From: Planctomycetota bacterium
Lineage (GTDB): Bacteria > Planctomycetota > Phycisphaerae > UBA1845 > Fen-1342
Direction of reading: 5' to 3'
DNA length: 40,664 nt
Assembly (NCBI GenBank): GCA_016235145.1
Contig: JACRLV010000253.1
Location: forward strand, 1 to 40,664
Part shown: in pieces, positions 1,952 through 36,107 of the stretch
Position numbering within the stretch: the first letter of the stretch is position 1
Layout: each line of letters begins with the position of its first letter
The notes under the pieces: model-generated
The model's input: the letters and a program-made list of their open reading frames with translations, nothing else
The model's database searches: none
Told to the model about the DNA's origin: nothing
Program-made: the position numbers and the translations under genes

Positions 1952-3052
1952 ATGCTGCACCTGCTGGAAAAATATCAGCTCTTCGGCTGGCTGGCGCTGG
2001 CCGGGGCGGCTTTCGCCACGCCCGCCGCCGCTCGCCTGGCGCGGCGGCTCGGCGTCATGGACATGCCGGACACGTTTCTCAAGCCGCACGCGCGGCCGAC
2101 TCCCTACCTGGGAGGTCTGGCGATCTGCCTGGGATGGGTCGCGTCGGTCGCGGCGGCGATGGTGGCCGGCCGCGTGCCCGTCGAGGTCGTGCTGCCGATC
2201 CTGCTGGGCGGCGTCGCGATGTCGGTTCTCGGGCTGCTCGACGATTCGCGCGGGCTGTCCCCGAAAATCCGGCTGACGATCGGGGCGGTGATCATCGCGG
2301 CAGTACTCATCACAACCGGGACCGGTTTTCAGCTGATGGACTCGCTGTTTCTGCCGATCGGAATCAAGCTGCCGCCCGCGGTCGCGATTCCGCTGTCGAT
2401 CGCCGCGAGCATCTTCATCGTGCTGGGCGCATGCAACTCCACCAACCTGATCGACGGTCTCGACGGACTCTGCACGGGCGTGACCGCGATCATCTCGCTC
2501 AGCTTCTTCCTGCTGGCCGCTCATCTGGCGTCTTTCAAGGAAGAGGAAAATCACTCGGTTCGCCTGGTGTTGTCGATCGCGATGGCGGGGGCCGCGTTGG
2601 GATTTCTGCCGTGGAACTTCAATCCGGCCAGAATTTTCATGGGCGACGCGGGCAGCGTCCTGCTCGGGTTCAATTGCGGAATCCTGATCCTGCTCTTCGC
2701 GGAATGGGGCATTGTCCGCTGGGTGCTCGGCGCCTTGATGATCTTCGCCCTGCCGGTTTTCGACACCGCGCTGGCGATGTTTCGGCGCTTCGCGTCGGGC
2801 AAGCCGGTCTTTCAGGGCGACCGCAGCCATTTCTACGATCAGCTCGTGCAGCGCGGCCTGAGCGTCAAGCAGACCGTGCTCGTGTGCTACGCGCTGACGC
2901 TGTTCTTTGCGATCACCGGGCTGCTCGTTGTGCAGACTCGCACGCTCTACGCACTCGCGATCTGTGTGGTCATCGGCGTGGCGGTGGCGTTGGCCGCGTG
3001 GATCACCGGGCTGACTCACCCGGAAAAAGGCGCGGACAACGGCAACGGCTGA
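1952..3052 (+). CDS. WecA/MraY-type undecaprenyl-phosphate sugar-1-phosphate transferase
   Basis: A 366-residue polytopic membrane protein of the MraY/WecA/TagO phosphoglycosyltransferase family. These enzymes move a sugar-1-phosphate (often GlcNAc-1-P) from a UDP-sugar to undecaprenyl phosphate on the cytoplasmic face, the first step of O-antigen or related glycan synthesis. Diagnostic sites are visible: LLDD (95-98) with the paired aspartates that bind Mg, NLIDGLDGL (165-173), FNPARIFMGDAG (223-234) with the catalytic-region Asp232, and DRSHFYDQL near 290-298, the counterpart of the family's histidine loop. There are about ten hydrophobic segments. The length is normal for WecA. The GT4 gene 42 bases downstream supports a polysaccharide role. 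The exact sugar substrate cannot be read from sequence, and MraY itself is less likely because no murein-cluster genes are nearby. Confidence 0.9.
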   Translation: MLHLLEKYQLFGWLALAGAAFATPAAARLARRLGVMDMPDTFLKPHARPTPYLGGLAICLGWVASVAAAMVAGRVPVEVVLPILLGGVAMSVLGLLDDSRGLSPKIRLTIGAVIIAAVLITTGTGFQLMDSLFLPIGIKLPPAVAIPLSIAASIFIVLGACNSTNLIDGLDGLCTGVTAIISLSFFLLAAHLASFKEEENHSVRLVLSIAMAGAALGFLPWNFNPARIFMGDAGSVLLGFNCGILILLFAEWGIVRWVLGALMIFALPVFDTALAMFRRFASGKPVFQGDRSHFYDQLVQRGLSVKQTVLVCYALTLFFAITGLLVVQTRTLYALAICVVIGVAVALAAWITGLTHPEKGADNGNG

Positions 3053-3094
3053 AAGCCCGCTCCGGCCCGGACCGCGCCTCCGAGCAACCACGAA

Positions 3095-4201
3095 ATGACG
3101 ATGCGCGTGGCACTGGTCGTGACCGATCTTCAACGCGGCGGCGCCCCGCTGCGGCTATCACGCCTGGCGCGCCGTCTGCGCGACGCCGGCGTCAATGTGC
3201 ACGTCGGATGCCTGGCGGCGCCCGGACCGCTGAGCGCCGAATTGGAACGGGATGGAATCCCGACGTTCGCCGCCGGGGCGCGGACCGTCTGGGACATCGG
3301 GGCGATACGGCGTCTGTCACGCGCCGTGGCCAAAATCCGTCCGGATCTGATTCACTCCACGCTCACGCATGCCAATGTCGCCTGTCGCTGGATCGGCCGG
3401 CGACTTGGAATACCCGTGGTCTCCTCCACCGCGACGATTGAGGTCGAGCGCGCCTGGCACGCCTGGGCGGAACGATGGACCGCAACATGGGATCGTGGGC
3501 ACCTGGTCAACTGTGCGGCGCTTGCGGACCATGTGCGATCGCGTTTTCGCGTGCCGAATAGCCGCATTTTCACCATCCCACCCTGCGTCGATCCCTGGCC
3601 GACCGCGATTCCTCGCGATCAGGCGCGAAAGACGCTCGGTCTGCCGAACGACGCGTTCGTGACCTTTTGGGCAGGCCGGTTCGATCCGGTCAAGCGCGTC
3701 GATTGGCTGGTCGATTGCGCCGCACAAACAACATCTTCGCGCTGGGTCGTGCTGCTCGCCGGCGACGGCGCGCAGCGCGAGGCGATCCAGCGCCGAATTC
3801 AGCGAGAGAACCTCGCAACCCGCGTGCGGCTGACCGGCTGGCTCGAAGACCTTTCAGCCGCGTTGTCCGCGGCGGACGTTTTCGCCTTTCCCTCGCTGAC
3901 CGAGGGCATGCCCGGCGCGGTGCTGACCGCGATGGCCGCCGGCGTGCCGGTCGCGGCCAGCGACATCCCGGCACACCGCGAACTGGCGGGCGACGCCGGG
4001 CGAATCCACCTCGTGAGCGGCGATCAGCGCGCCTGGCTTTCCGCGTTGCAGCAGTTGGAAGTCGATGCCGGGCGGCGAGCAACCCTCGCCGACGCAGCTC
4101 GAGCTTGGGCGGCCGCGAACCTGGACCCGGCTCGAACGACCGCCGAGACAATCTCGGCGTATCGCAAGGCGCTGCGCCCGCCGGAACCGGCCGGCGCGTG
4201 A
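3095..4201 (+). CDS. GT4-family glycosyltransferase
   Basis: A 368-residue GT-B fold retaining glycosyltransferase of family GT4. The N-terminal domain begins RVALVVTDLQRGGAPL, the usual nucleotide-sugar enzyme opening with a glycine-rich acceptor loop. The C-terminal domain carries FWAGRFDPVKRVDWLV (about 190-205), LLAGDG, and the donor-binding EX7E region PSLTEGMPGAVLTAMAAGVP (about 269-288). It probably adds a sugar to a lipid-linked or LPS glycan in the cytoplasm. Its start may be ATG 3095 or ATG 3101; the second gives the more typical N-terminus MRVALVV. It follows the WecA-type gene closely on the same strand and is likely co-transcribed. Donor and acceptor are unknown. Confidence 0.88.
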   Translation: MTMRVALVVTDLQRGGAPLRLSRLARRLRDAGVNVHVGCLAAPGPLSAELERDGIPTFAAGARTVWDIGAIRRLSRAVAKIRPDLIHSTLTHANVACRWIGRRLGIPVVSSTATIEVERAWHAWAERWTATWDRGHLVNCAALADHVRSRFRVPNSRIFTIPPCVDPWPTAIPRDQARKTLGLPNDAFVTFWAGRFDPVKRVDWLVDCAAQTTSSRWVVLLAGDGAQREAIQRRIQRENLATRVRLTGWLEDLSAALSAADVFAFPSLTEGMPGAVLTAMAAGVPVAASDIPAHRELAGDAGRIHLVSGDQRAWLSALQQLEVDAGRRATLADAARAWAAANLDPARTTAETISAYRKALRPPEPAGA

Positions 4202-4261
4202 ACTGAACCGCACAACCGCGTTCGCTGCGCGCCGGCGAACACAATCACCATCTGGTGCGGT

Positions 4262-4267
4262 TACAGT
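4262..4267 (+). promoter_or_regulatory. -10 box of a probable leaderless transcript
   Basis: TACAGT lies six bases before the ATG of the phosphatase gene and no Shine-Dalgarno sequence intervenes. A start of transcription at or next to the ATG is inferred. The -35 region is not convincing. Confidence 0.35.
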
Positions 4268-4273
4268 GCGCGC

Positions 4274-5050
4274 ATGAAAACCGACCTGCCATCACCTCAG
4301 TCGCTCCTGGATTTCGCGGTCGAGGCCGCCCAGCTCGCGGGCGCCGTCACGCTCGGCTATTTCAACGCCCAGACGCCGGTCGAATGGAAGCAGGATCGGT
4401 CGCCTGTCACGGCGGCGGATCGATCCGCCGAAGAGAAGCTGCGCGAGCGGATCGAGCGGGCCTTTCCGGGTCACGGCATCGTCGGCGAAGAGCATGGCGA
4501 GAGACCGGGCGACGGACGGGTACGCTGGATTCTGGATCCAATCGATGGAACTTTTTCGTTCATCCACGGCGTGCCGCTGTACAGCGTGCTGGTCGGCCTT
4601 GAGATCGATGGCGAGGTTCAGGTCGGCGTGATTCACCTGCCCGCGCTGGGCGAGACCGTGTATGCCGCCCGCGGGTTGGGGTGCTGGTGGAACGGCCGCC
4701 GGGCGCGAGTGTCCGCGACGGCGGAGTTGCCCGGTGCGACGGTACTGACCGGCGGCGGCAAGATGTTCGAGAAAACAGGCCGCTGGCCGCACTTTGAGCG
4801 GCTGATCAAAACCTGCGGCGTACACCGGAGCTGGTGCGACGGTTATGGCTATTCGCTGGTCGCAACCGGCAGGGCAGATATCGCGGTCGATCCCATCATG
4901 AAAATCTGGGACGTTGCGGCGCTGGTGCCCGTGGTGCTCGAGGCCGGCGGCCGGATTACAGATTGGAAGGGCCGGTGTACGCATCAGGCCGGAGAGATCG
5001 TCGCGACGAACGGGCAGGTGCATGACGCGGTTCTGAAAACCCTCGCGTAA
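4274..5050 (+). CDS. inositol monophosphatase-family phosphatase (HisN-like)
   Basis: A 258-residue Mg-dependent phosphatase of the IMPase/FIG superfamily. Metal-binding motifs are intact: GEEHGE (71-76), WILDPIDGT (85-93) and WDVAAL (212-217). CDGYGY (188-193) is the kind of segment seen in histidinol-phosphatases of this superfamily (HisN), which carry out the penultimate step of histidine synthesis. Inositol-1-phosphatase or another sugar phosphatase remains possible. Length matches the family. The gene starts at ATG 4274 and may be transcribed without a leader. Its stop codon is separated by one base from the stop of the convergent rsmE gene. No other histidine gene is nearby, so the substrate call is tentative. 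Confidence 0.85.
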   Translation: MKTDLPSPQSLLDFAVEAAQLAGAVTLGYFNAQTPVEWKQDRSPVTAADRSAEEKLRERIERAFPGHGIVGEEHGERPGDGRVRWILDPIDGTFSFIHGVPLYSVLVGLEIDGEVQVGVIHLPALGETVYAARGLGCWWNGRRARVSATAELPGATVLTGGGKMFEKTGRWPHFERLIKTCGVHRSWCDGYGYSLVATGRADIAVDPIMKIWDVAALVPVVLEAGGRITDWKGRCTHQAGEIVATNGQVHDAVLKTLA

Positions 5051-32724: not shown

Positions 32725-32792
32725 GAACGAACCGGGCATTTCGAAAGCACGTGGACCGCGACTGCGGCGGACACCAAGCCGGAGGAACTGAG

Positions 32793-34442
32793 ATGAAATG
32801 GCGATTCTCACTTGCATTCGTGTTTGCGGTCGGAGCGTTGCTGATCGGCGGTTGCCCGGACACCTCGTCGACCGACCCGGGCGGCGACGAGATTCCCGCC
32901 ATGTCCACGATCCAACGGCAGATGCCCGTCTCGGATTTCGAGTCGCTCGCCGAGTCCGATGCCGATCTGAAGTCGATCATCTCCTTCGCCCAAGCCGCGT
33001 TCGGGGCAGGGGCTGCGATTGAGGCGGGGATCGTCGGCGAAACCTCCGGCGCGCAGATCACGTGGATCGCGTATGCGGCCAGCGGCGATCCCGTCGTGGT
33101 CGCGCGGCACTGTGAGGACGGGGACTGCGTTTCGGGCGTGGTGCTGCCGAATTCAGCGGACGGCGACGTCGGCTGGTATGGGCCGCGCGGCGCGATTCGA
33201 ATCCGCCAGGTTCCCGAGCCGTTTCTGCTGCGCGTCTACACCAACGAGGCCGATCCGGACGGCAGTTCGGACATCGCGCCTGACGACTTCTCATCGCTGG
33301 TCGCGCGGGTGCGCTCCGCGCCCGTAATGCCGCAAACCGCGAAACGCCGCCTGGCCGCCGCCGCGGATCGCGAGCGTGAATTCCATGTTGCGTCGGCGTT
33401 CGGCAGTTTCTTTTCGTTCGAGGGTTCTTCGTTTTCCGACCTGCTCGCGAGCATGGACGGTGTGGGTTTCACGACGACGGAACTGCACAAGCACGCCGGA
33501 CCGGTTGAGGCGGACGCGCTTCTGAAATCGCGCGGACCTGACGACGTGCTGGTCTTTTATGGACACGGAGACGTATCGGCATCCAAGGGCCGTGCGACCG
33601 GAATGTCGCTGAACCGTTTCTACATTGGGTCCAAACACTATCCGGCGGAGCATGCGGCGCAGATGCTCGACGCCAATCCGAACGGTGGCCCGGGAATGGT
33701 GTTTTTGGCGGGTTGTCAGACGGGCGACCTGGTGAACGATCTGGACGGCCCCAACCGAATCATCATTGGATTCTCGAAACCGCACTACGCCACGAACATC
33801 CGCAGCGCGACGAAAGCCTTTTTTGACACCTACACCGCCGGCGGCACTCTCGGCGAAGCCATTGAAAAGGTCAACCGGCTTGGAATCATGAGTTCGCACG
33901 ACGTCGCGCTGGTCGTCAACCGGCAGGCGAACCTGAACCGGAAATTCGCCGACGATCCGGCCTCGAGCCCAAGTGAGCCGGAGGATCCGCTTCCGCACGT
34001 CTATCGCGGCACGGGTTTCTTCGACGTCACCGCCACGAACAATTTCGGCAGTCGATCCACGAGAACGCTCAGCCAGACCGTGACCGTTGAGGTGCAGATC
34101 CGCGACAACAACCAAGCCACCGCGCGAATCTCCGGAACACGGGCGCTCTCGCCCGAATGTCCCTCGGGCGGCGACCCCGGCGGCGATGTCAACGAAATCA
34201 GCCTCAACTTCTCGACCGACTGGTCGGGCCAGTGGCAGGGATCGCCCACGAACGGCACGGTTGATCTCCATTTCACGGATCAATCGATCGATTTCGTAAT
34301 TTCGTGCACCTTCACCGATGCCAATATCTCGGGGCACGGCGAGTGGACCGGCACCTACGGCACGCCGACCTGCACGACCGTCACGACGACGCAACACAAC
34401 GTCTGGAGCTTCAGCAACTTGTCGCGCTCGGTTGGACCCTGA
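32793..34442 (+). CDS. lipoprotein with caspase-like (clan CD) peptidase domain
   Basis: A 549-residue predicted lipoprotein: signal peptide with lipobox LIGGC (lipid-modified Cys21). The central region resembles a caspase-haemoglobinase fold (CHAT/C14/C25-like): DVLVFYGHGD supplies the catalytic His258 at a strand end, and GMVFLAGCQTGDLV supplies Cys308 in the expected AxxC setting. These two form the clan CD dyad. Between them a loop reads GMSLNRFYIGS. The C-terminal part from about 400 is beta-rich (VTVEVQIRDNNQATARI and later strands) without a recognised domain. It would sit on a membrane facing the periplasm or outside and may cleave exported proteins. GGAGGAA precedes ATG 32793. Catalysis is inferred from motifs alone. 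Confidence 0.75.
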   Translation: MKWRFSLAFVFAVGALLIGGCPDTSSTDPGGDEIPAMSTIQRQMPVSDFESLAESDADLKSIISFAQAAFGAGAAIEAGIVGETSGAQITWIAYAASGDPVVVARHCEDGDCVSGVVLPNSADGDVGWYGPRGAIRIRQVPEPFLLRVYTNEADPDGSSDIAPDDFSSLVARVRSAPVMPQTAKRRLAAAADREREFHVASAFGSFFSFEGSSFSDLLASMDGVGFTTTELHKHAGPVEADALLKSRGPDDVLVFYGHGDVSASKGRATGMSLNRFYIGSKHYPAEHAAQMLDANPNGGPGMVFLAGCQTGDLVNDLDGPNRIIIGFSKPHYATNIRSATKAFFDTYTAGGTLGEAIEKVNRLGIMSSHDVALVVNRQANLNRKFADDPASSPSEPEDPLPHVYRGTGFFDVTATNNFGSRSTRTLSQTVTVEVQIRDNNQATARISGTRALSPECPSGGDPGGDVNEISLNFSTDWSGQWQGSPTNGTVDLHFTDQSIDFVISCTFTDANISGHGEWTGTYGTPTCTTVTTTQHNVWSFSNLSRSVGP

Positions 34443-34453
34443 TTGCGGTCAGC

Positions 34454-34549
34454 AGTCCGTTGAAAAATGTACCGCAGCCGCCCTCGGCTGCTGTGTTTCT
34501 CGATAAGTCCGACGATCGCGGAGGGTCGGAACGGATTTTTCAACGGACT
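34454..34549. repeat. 96-bp element with 15-bp perfect terminal inverted repeats
   Basis: AGTCCGTTGAAAAAT (34454-34468) is perfectly inverted at 34535-34549. Inside lie GCAGCCG/CGGCTGC stem arms (34473-34490). The poly-A/T ends and compact size resemble a non-autonomous mobile element or long hairpin terminator after the lipoprotein gene. No transposase is present. Confidence 0.7.
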
Positions 34550-34688: not shown

Positions 34689-36107
34689 ATGTACGCGTTT
34701 CCGCGCCTCGCTTTCAGCGTCGCCGCCGGCGCCGTCGCAGCGTCCGCCGAGACGATCACCCTCTCCCCGCTGGTGCTCGACAACCAGGAAGTGCCGGAGA
34801 TCGGGTTCGTCACGTCGATCGACAATCTCGCGATCAACGATCATGGCCAGTGGATCGTGGAGGTGGACACGGACTTTCCCGACACCAACACGGACGGAGC
34901 CCTGATCCGCACAGGCTCGCCATATTTGCGCGAGGGCGACGCGCTCGCCGCCCCCGCAGGGACGAACATCGATTCTTTCGATTCCGTCACGCTCAACAAC
35001 TCCGGCCAGAGCGGCTGGAATTTCTTCCTGGGCAACGCCACCACGGGGACCGATTCCGGAATCTTCTGGGGCGATCAGTTGGTGATCCAGGAAGGCGATC
35101 TCTCCGCCGCGCCGCAGTTTTCGCCCGGCACGCCGTACATCGGCTTCTTCGAAGTGAAGATCAACAACGCCAACGACATGATGGTCCTGGCGTCGGTGGA
35201 CGATCCCGTGATCGCAACGACCGTGGATCGGGCTCTGGTTCATCTCACGCTCAACCCGGACGGTTCGCTGGCCGGCGAGGATGTGCTCTACAAAGAGGGC
35301 GATGTGCTGCCCGGCCAGGTCGAGGCGGTCGCGGATTTTCTGACCGGCCCGCACAACTTCGCATTCAACGACGCCGGCCAGACGATGTTCGTCGCCGATC
35401 TCACCGGCGACACGACGCATGATCTGGCGGTCTACATCGACTCCACGCGGATTGCGCAGGAAGGCGAGCCGTCGCCCGTGACGGGCCGCAACTGGTCGAG
35501 CCTCGGCACGGCCCGCGTCGGCCTGAACCGCTTCGGGCAATTCGTTCATACCGGCACGCTCGCCGGCGACACCGCAACGGACAACGTGATCGTGTCGAGC
35601 CGCGGCGTCGTGAAGCAGGAGGGCGATCCGATCGGCGCGTTCACTTTCACCGGCTTCGGCTCCGGGCCCGTGCTGATCAGCGACCAGGGCCGGGTTCTCT
35701 GGTACGGCGCATGGAACGACGTCTCGACCACGAACGAAGGGTTATTTCTGGATGACACGCTGCTGGTGCACGAAGGCGTGACCACCGTCGAGGGAGTGGT
35801 CGTGCAGACATTGCGCGGAATTCAGGACGGATATGCAATGAGCGCCAACGGGCGCTACGTCATCTTCGAAGCGACATTGGCGGACGGACGCGACGGGGCC
35901 TTCCAGATCGAGTTGAGCGCGTGTCCGGGCGAGATTGCCGGCGACTCGATGACCGACTTGAGCGACCTCGCCGCGCTGCTGGCCAGCTTCGGATCGTGCG
36001 CGGGACAGTCGAACTTCGTCGTGGCGGCGGACCTGGATTTTGACGGCTGCATCACGTTGAGCGACCTGGCGACGCTGCTCTCCGCCTTCGGCTTGCCGTG
36101 TCCGTGA
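34689..36107 (+). CDS. exported repeat protein with C-terminal dockerin-type tail
   Basis: A 472-residue exported protein. Residues 1-20 are a signal peptide (LAFSVAAGAVAASA). The body contains related beta units with recurring phrases such as IDNLAINDHGQWIV, ..EGDALAAPAG, VTLNNSGQSGW, VIQEGD, FAFNDAGQTMFVADLTG and LISDQGRVLWYG. The pattern (N-x-x-G-x plus a strand) suggests a beta-propeller or similar. The C-terminus has two loops, GDSMTDLSDLAALLASFG and ADLDFDGCITLSDLATLLSA, of the Cys-containing planctomycete dockerin type. GGAGG lies before the ATG. A role at the cell surface or in extracellular matrix is inferred. Confidence 0.8.
   Translation: MYAFPRLAFSVAAGAVAASAETITLSPLVLDNQEVPEIGFVTSIDNLAINDHGQWIVEVDTDFPDTNTDGALIRTGSPYLREGDALAAPAGTNIDSFDSVTLNNSGQSGWNFFLGNATTGTDSGIFWGDQLVIQEGDLSAAPQFSPGTPYIGFFEVKINNANDMMVLASVDDPVIATTVDRALVHLTLNPDGSLAGEDVLYKEGDVLPGQVEAVADFLTGPHNFAFNDAGQTMFVADLTGDTTHDLAVYIDSTRIAQEGEPSPVTGRNWSSLGTARVGLNRFGQFVHTGTLAGDTATDNVIVSSRGVVKQEGDPIGAFTFTGFGSGPVLISDQGRVLWYGAWNDVSTTNEGLFLDDTLLVHEGVTTVEGVVVQTLRGIQDGYAMSANGRYVIFEATLADGRDGAFQIELSACPGEIAGDSMTDLSDLAALLASFGSCAGQSNFVVAADLDFDGCITLSDLATLLSAFGLPCP

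Follow-up and report, generated by a model that had tools for sequence, protein, structure and literature searches.

Does a planctomycete gene that reads as a lipoprotein with a caspase-like core encode a peptidase that works outside the cytoplasm, and how unusual would such a protein be? The gene lies at positions 32793–34442 on the + strand of the window, a stretch of 40,664 nucleotides from contig JACRLV010000253.1 of a Planctomycetota bacterium (assembly GCA_016235145.1); its reading frame is open from an ATG start and yields a protein of 549 amino acids. An earlier note had proposed a lipid-anchored caspase-like protease at this position and had called a surface lipoprotein of this kind unusual. 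Our computations show a lipobox, a conserved His/Cys dyad, a profile relationship to clan CD and a C-terminal module that is shared with other proteins. A lipid-tethered, extracytoplasmic cysteine endopeptidase with a caspase fold is in our view the best explanation, with a probability of about 0.7.

Profile and fold comparisons of the core

The caspase-like core spans about residues 190–389 (33360–33959; all features of the gene are on the + strand). It contains the predicted catalytic histidine, His258 in the motif YGHGD (33564–33566), and the predicted nucleophile, Cys308 in the motif LAGCQTG (33714–33716). Both residues are invariant in the five aligned cores (5/5), three of which are only 20–23% identical to that of the window. 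The Pfam cut-offs for PF00656 (C14), PF12770 (CHAT), PF03415 (C11) and PF01364 (C25) were not reached, the best PHROGs match of the window protein had an E value of only 0.31, and a sequence search of the PDB returned chance matches only.

Profile-profile comparison was more informative. Two profiles of the core, the five-member A4 and the smaller A2, were aligned using HHalign with profiles derived from related genomes, which drew on 13 of 16 CHAT loci, 15 of 16 C14 loci, all 12 C25 loci and the single C11 domain. With A4, the planctomycete C14 profile reached a probability of 91.4%, followed by CHAT (26.1%), C25 (4.4%) and C11 (0.2%). With A2, the highest value was obtained for CHAT (71.6%), followed by C14 (53.8%), C25 (10.2%) and C11 (0.3%); across the core profiles, the C25 probability ranged from 4.4 to 13.9. 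When A4 is aligned with C14 or with CHAT, its His (GHG) and Cys motifs fall in register with theirs. Positive controls gave 95.6% for CHAT with C14, 49.9% for C14 with C25 and 0.6% for CHAT with C25, the last of which shows that kinship is compatible with a low HHalign value. For each of six comparisons, the real score lay above those of all 60 column shuffles, and with reversed profiles the probability was at most 0.3%.

A model of the core alone was built from two sequences without templates. In this low-confidence model the strands follow the order 8–12, 42–46, 63–68 (then His69), 113–117 (then Cys119), 133–136 and 184–187, with helices between them, an order of strands and helices that is usual for clan CD. 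The first five Foldseek ranks were all taken by chains of the SAVED-CHAT structure 8tl0 (best E = 4.9e-4), and a VIA comparison placed chain 8tl0_D highest (Z = 10.0, r.m.s.d. = 3.7, 166 residues aligned). Caspase-6 chains came next (Z = 6.9–7.3), separase, MALT1 and asparaginyl endopeptidase were also listed, and 48 of the 50 rows listed belong to clan CD by their titles. The tool cautions that a Z-score under 8 may reflect a common arrangement, which leaves the CHAT match as the only one that is notable on its own.

From the profiles and the model we conclude that the core most probably belongs to clan CD without falling into any of the four Pfam families tested, its nearest kin being C14 and CHAT. 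The motifs LIGGC, His258 and Cys308 were found at the positions given in the earlier note, and its caspase-like core is borne out by the controlled profile comparison, the conserved His and Cys and, at low confidence, the strand order and fold matches of the model. In the comparison with CHAT, gingipain and clostripain that it had suggested, CHAT reached 71.6% with A2 and was the top fold match of the low-confidence model, and C25 and C11 stayed at the 4.4% and 0.2% obtained with A4.

Lipoprotein signal and C-terminal module

Residues 1–21 (MKWRFSLAFVFAVGALLIGGC; 32793–32855) form the predicted lipoprotein signal peptide and lipobox (LIGGC), with the codon of Cys21 at 32853–32855. They satisfy a lipobox rule that we coded after PROSITE entry PS51257 (N-terminal positive charge, a hydrophobic stretch and a Cys within the first 35 residues). 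The only full-length relative passes this rule as well and has kept the lipobox, which speaks for the predicted lipid anchor.

The last ~150 residues are rich in strands according to the low-confidence model, in agreement with the earlier description of a beta-rich C-terminal part, and are delimited as an antiparallel-beta module of about residues 397–549 (33981–34439). When the full-length model was submitted to VIA, only residues 397–545 were matched, by OmpA-like and lipoprotein beta-barrel chains (Z = 8.6 or less), and these matches may merely reflect a common arrangement. By sequence, the module also matches the C-termini of L003 and L004, two otherwise different proteins from other genomes of the order whose N-termini look signal-like by eye; a four-member profile of the module found 4 of 101 genomes, all of them harbouring the profile’s own members. 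The module thus appears to be a beta domain that can be carried by different, probably exported proteins. A WHHQTAH motif in L003 and L004 is reminiscent of zinc-dependent phospholipases, a likeness that Pfam does not confirm.

The remaining part of the protein, an N-terminal region of about residues 40–185 (32910–33347), contains no known domain according to library scans and the alignment with the relative, in which the cysteine pair of its HCEDGDC motif is kept. A Shine-Dalgarno-like GGAGGA, read from the sequence, is located at 32781–32786, 6 nt ahead of the ATG.

Relatives of the window protein

Among 101 genomes searched, the window’s own included, one full-length relative was found, which is 51% identical and belongs to a genome of the same family (G018). 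It resides on contig JAGQOO010000159.1 of the MAG Phycisphaerales bacterium isolate HKST-UBA16 (locus L012/L002), the one relative that a scan of genome contigs recovered as well. The Phycisphaerales lie within Planctomycetota, and this gene copy runs into its contig end. The lipobox, both HCEDGDC cysteines, His258 and Cys308 are all retained. The gene is rare: the core profile A4 matched 2 of the 101 genomes at E values of 0.001 or better, namely the window’s own and G018, and the whole protein matched 10 of 397 genomes of the class at 0.01 or better, mostly through weak partial matches. A scan of viral contigs gave no relative, a tblastn search with the window core against plasmid and phage collections gave no match, and neither did the L013 and L017 cores introduced below, which were run against plasmids only.

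Several hits were discarded on inspection, from which L010 and L011 were left out. The match of L005 is confined to the signal peptide region, that of L014 is short and falls inside an unrelated large open reading frame (ORF), and L007, L008 and L009 do not, in our judgement, fall within the main reading frames at their loci. L006, viewed as ORFs only, has no recognisable GH/GC pair, and L019 sits in an enolase-like frame and was regarded as spurious.

More distant cores were found in other settings. At L013, the profile made from the two full-length sequences hit a C-terminal domain (E = 2.3e-7), which was also matched by phmmer (E = 1.1e-6 for an assumed database of 100,000). This domain is preceded by an Rhs core, which scores just below the cut-off of TIGR03696 (E = 3.2e-7; 30.8 bits against 32.5). 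Positions 2–1457 of L013 comprise the end of the Rhs core protein and the caspase-like domain and are followed by an ORF of 169 amino acids that is hydrophobic by eye; the two genes make up a candidate toxin-immunity pair. A three-member profile then matched 5 of 392 genomes of the phylum at E values of 0.01 or better, represented by the window, L013 (itself in the profile), L017, L018 and the spurious L019. Ahead of the L017 core (E = 2.1e-6) lies a peptidoglycan-binding-like domain, whose PF01471 match narrowly misses the cut-off (E = 1.4e-4), and the weakly matching L018 core (E = 0.0025) follows sequence that is Rhs-like by eye and is overlapped by an ORF of 210 amino acids that appears hydrophobic.

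At L066, a peptidoglycan-binding-like domain and a caspase-like core are encoded at 3147–4736, and an overlapping ORF at 2357–3169 (270 amino acids) has weak HEAT-repeat similarity. At L067 (G654:C23), an Rhs-like protein with a caspase-like C-terminal domain (792–2902) is overlapped by an ORF of 210 amino acids, hydrophobic by eye, and a further ORF at 3685–4719 combines the core with a different tail, an arrangement that points to orphan tails in a polymorphic toxin locus.

Leave-one-out profiles recovered each of the five members at E values of 1.1e-6 or better, again for an assumed database of 100,000, and C14 domains ranked next (E = 0.7 to 2.4). Since three of the five members were themselves found by profile, this recovery indicates coherence and is not independent proof. 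We see in these cores a putative caspase-like subfamily that is as yet unmodelled and somewhat new, occurring as a stand-alone lipoprotein, at Rhs-type C-termini and beside a peptidoglycan-binding-like domain.

Predicted export of clan CD proteins in related genomes

In related genomes, an N-terminus that looks signal-like was found for 13 of 16 C14 and 9 of the 10 readable C25 loci, and for none of the 7 readable CHAT loci, which also showed no lipobox. The rule applied is home-made and permissive, accepting a start anywhere within the first 80 codons, and the CHAT loci are its sole negative control; the N-terminus could be read at 7 of 16 CHAT, 16 of 16 C14, 10 of 12 C25 and 0 of 1 C11 loci. 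Three of the 16 C14 loci passed the lipobox pattern, one of them convincingly to our eyes. When 26 genomes, including the window’s own, were searched for each family, C25 was present in 18, CHAT in 11, C14 in 6 and C11 in one. Some relatives of the same family have C25 peptidases in great number (21 matches in G006), and no C25 match was obtained in the window’s own genome, which is 82% complete. Exported clan CD peptidases therefore look common in this lineage as far as such predictions go.

Published work points the same way. Clan CD proteases of the C11 family are surface lipoproteins in Bacteroidales (PMC11169675; PMC9308784), some prokaryotic metacaspases carry N-terminal helices that could be signal peptides (PMC3501461), and polymorphic toxins can end in caspase-like domains, which serve as toxins or as releasing peptidases (PMC3482391). 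Because of these precedents, the kind of protein encoded in the window is already known, and together with the signal-like N-termini of C14 (13/16) and C25 (9/10) they leave the claim that a surface lipoprotein version is unusual without good support. A literature search of limited reach found no description of this subfamily or of this combination of parts, and among the titles and opening lines of abstracts listed there was none on this protein.

Gene neighbourhood

Methyltransferase, aldehyde dehydrogenase and DHDPS-family genes are found upstream of the window gene, and proteins without a Pfam match are encoded downstream. The next long ORF on the + strand starts at 34689, and its product of 472 amino acids is not small and hydrophobic. 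A conserved neighbourhood was sought and none was seen: where the window has the DHDPS-family gene upstream, a different gene, encoded on the opposite strand, is found in the relative. The search for partners in related genomes that had been proposed earlier accordingly found no conserved partner gene, with a single full-length relative available.

Just past the stop codon, at 34454–34549, the window contains an element of 96 nt with perfect terminal inverted repeats of 15 nt. Four copies of the exact arm are present in the genome. The three besides that of the window have a nearly identical body of roughly the same length, which runs in the opposite orientation to the window copy. In appearance the element resembles a miniature mobile or palindromic repeat.

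Discussion

In the mechanism that we favour, signal peptidase II would cleave the precursor and Cys21 would then be lipidated, so that a caspase-fold peptidase with a His258/Cys308 dyad would be tethered to a membrane outside the cytoplasm. There it would cut proteins at or near the cell envelope, its substrates perhaps stemming from the envelope or from the environment, and the C-terminal beta module could act as a binding or positioning domain. By analogy, the closest working model would be the tethered Bacteroidales C11 proteases such as fragipain, even though the window protein is not C11 by sequence.

A number of results weigh against this reading. No Pfam family matches the window protein at E values up to 10, NCBIfam and PADLOC offer no match either, and the C25 and C11 scores with A4 are weak. 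The core model has low confidence (pLDDT = 48.4, pTM = 0.52), and the full-length model (pLDDT = 43) is too poor for the core. The same silence of the libraries and low model confidence, together with the tool’s own remark that middling Z-scores are common, would also suit a protein that is no peptidase at all, the GH and GC motifs having arisen by coincidence in some other alpha/beta protein. With both motifs in register, the shuffle and reversal controls, and clan CD entries in 48 of 50 VIA rows, we regard this as highly improbable. Furthermore, selection on the dyad is deduced from two full-length sequences and three distant cores found by profile, and the neighbouring genes point to no partner or substrate. 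In one survey of planctomycete metacaspases the dyad was intact in 64% and missing from 36% (PMC3501461), and clan CD membership therefore does not prove activity in this lineage. Such frequent loss of the dyad would also suit a non-catalytic lipoprotein that uses the caspase-like fold for binding only, as a pseudo-peptidase or scaffold, and catalysis by the window protein is indeed a prediction from its sequence. The invariance of His and Cys in all five cores, including the three at 20–23% identity, argues the other way and makes a purely binding protein unlikely.

Somewhat less unlikely, though still doubtful, is a core of toxin type, derived from or resembling Rhs C-terminal caspase-like domains and displayed by the lipoprotein as a contact-dependent antibacterial effector. 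Among non-orthologous cores, the closest is indeed the C-terminal domain of the Rhs-core protein of L013, with its hydrophobic-looking ORF behind it, L018 provides a second core after Rhs-like sequence with an overlapping ORF of similar appearance, and caspase-like toxin or releasing peptidase domains have been published (PMC3482391). However, the window gene has no Rhs match and no small hydrophobic immunity-like ORF directly downstream, its neighbours differ from those of the full-length relative, and the support from L018 is weak (E = 0.0025). Moreover, anchoring to the producer alone delivers nothing to a neighbouring cell, and no delivery part is present. In a broader and equally speculative proposal, which we also hold to be improbable, an unnamed Planctomycetota caspase-like family would move between Rhs-type toxins, a peptidoglycan-binding-like protein and the lipoprotein, the latter being a toxin domain, either domesticated or displayed, with envelope proteins of a neighbour or of its own cell as substrates.

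The tethered peptidase that we prefer shares features with several known systems and coincides with none of them. Like fragipain, DpnA and DpnB, which are Bacteroidales members of the clostripain family C11 (PMC9308784), it would be a lipid-tethered clan CD protease; unlike them, it has no PF03415 match, reaches 0.2% with the single C11 domain available, and combines a different N-terminal region with a C-terminal beta module. C14 metacaspases (PF00656) give the best profile match with His and Cys in register and look exported in the same lineage, but the window protein stays below Pfam detection at an E value of 10. CHAT (PF12770; SAVED-CHAT 8tl0) is the top fold match of the low-confidence model, and its Cys motif (LSGCETG in L020) is closer to LAGCQTG than that of C14; the window protein nevertheless has no PF12770 match and carries a lipobox, whereas 0 of 7 CHAT loci look exported. 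The Tox-Caspase domains of polymorphic toxins (PMC3482391) recall the nearest distant cores, which are likewise C-terminal to Rhs-type sequence, yet the window gene encodes a lipoprotein and has neither an Rhs match nor an immunity-like neighbour. Gingipain-type C25 peptidases (PF01364) are secreted clan CD enzymes found in 18 of 26 genomes, but the window protein has no PF01364 match and a profile probability of 4.4–13.9.

The protein adds an unmodelled branch to clan CD and sets right the assumption that caspase-like proteins of bacteria seldom occur outside the cytoplasm. The presence of the same caspase-like core in a tethered lipoprotein and at an Rhs-type C-terminus connects two contexts of research on such domains. 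If active, the tethered protease could, like fragipain in Bacteroides, have surface proteins to process.
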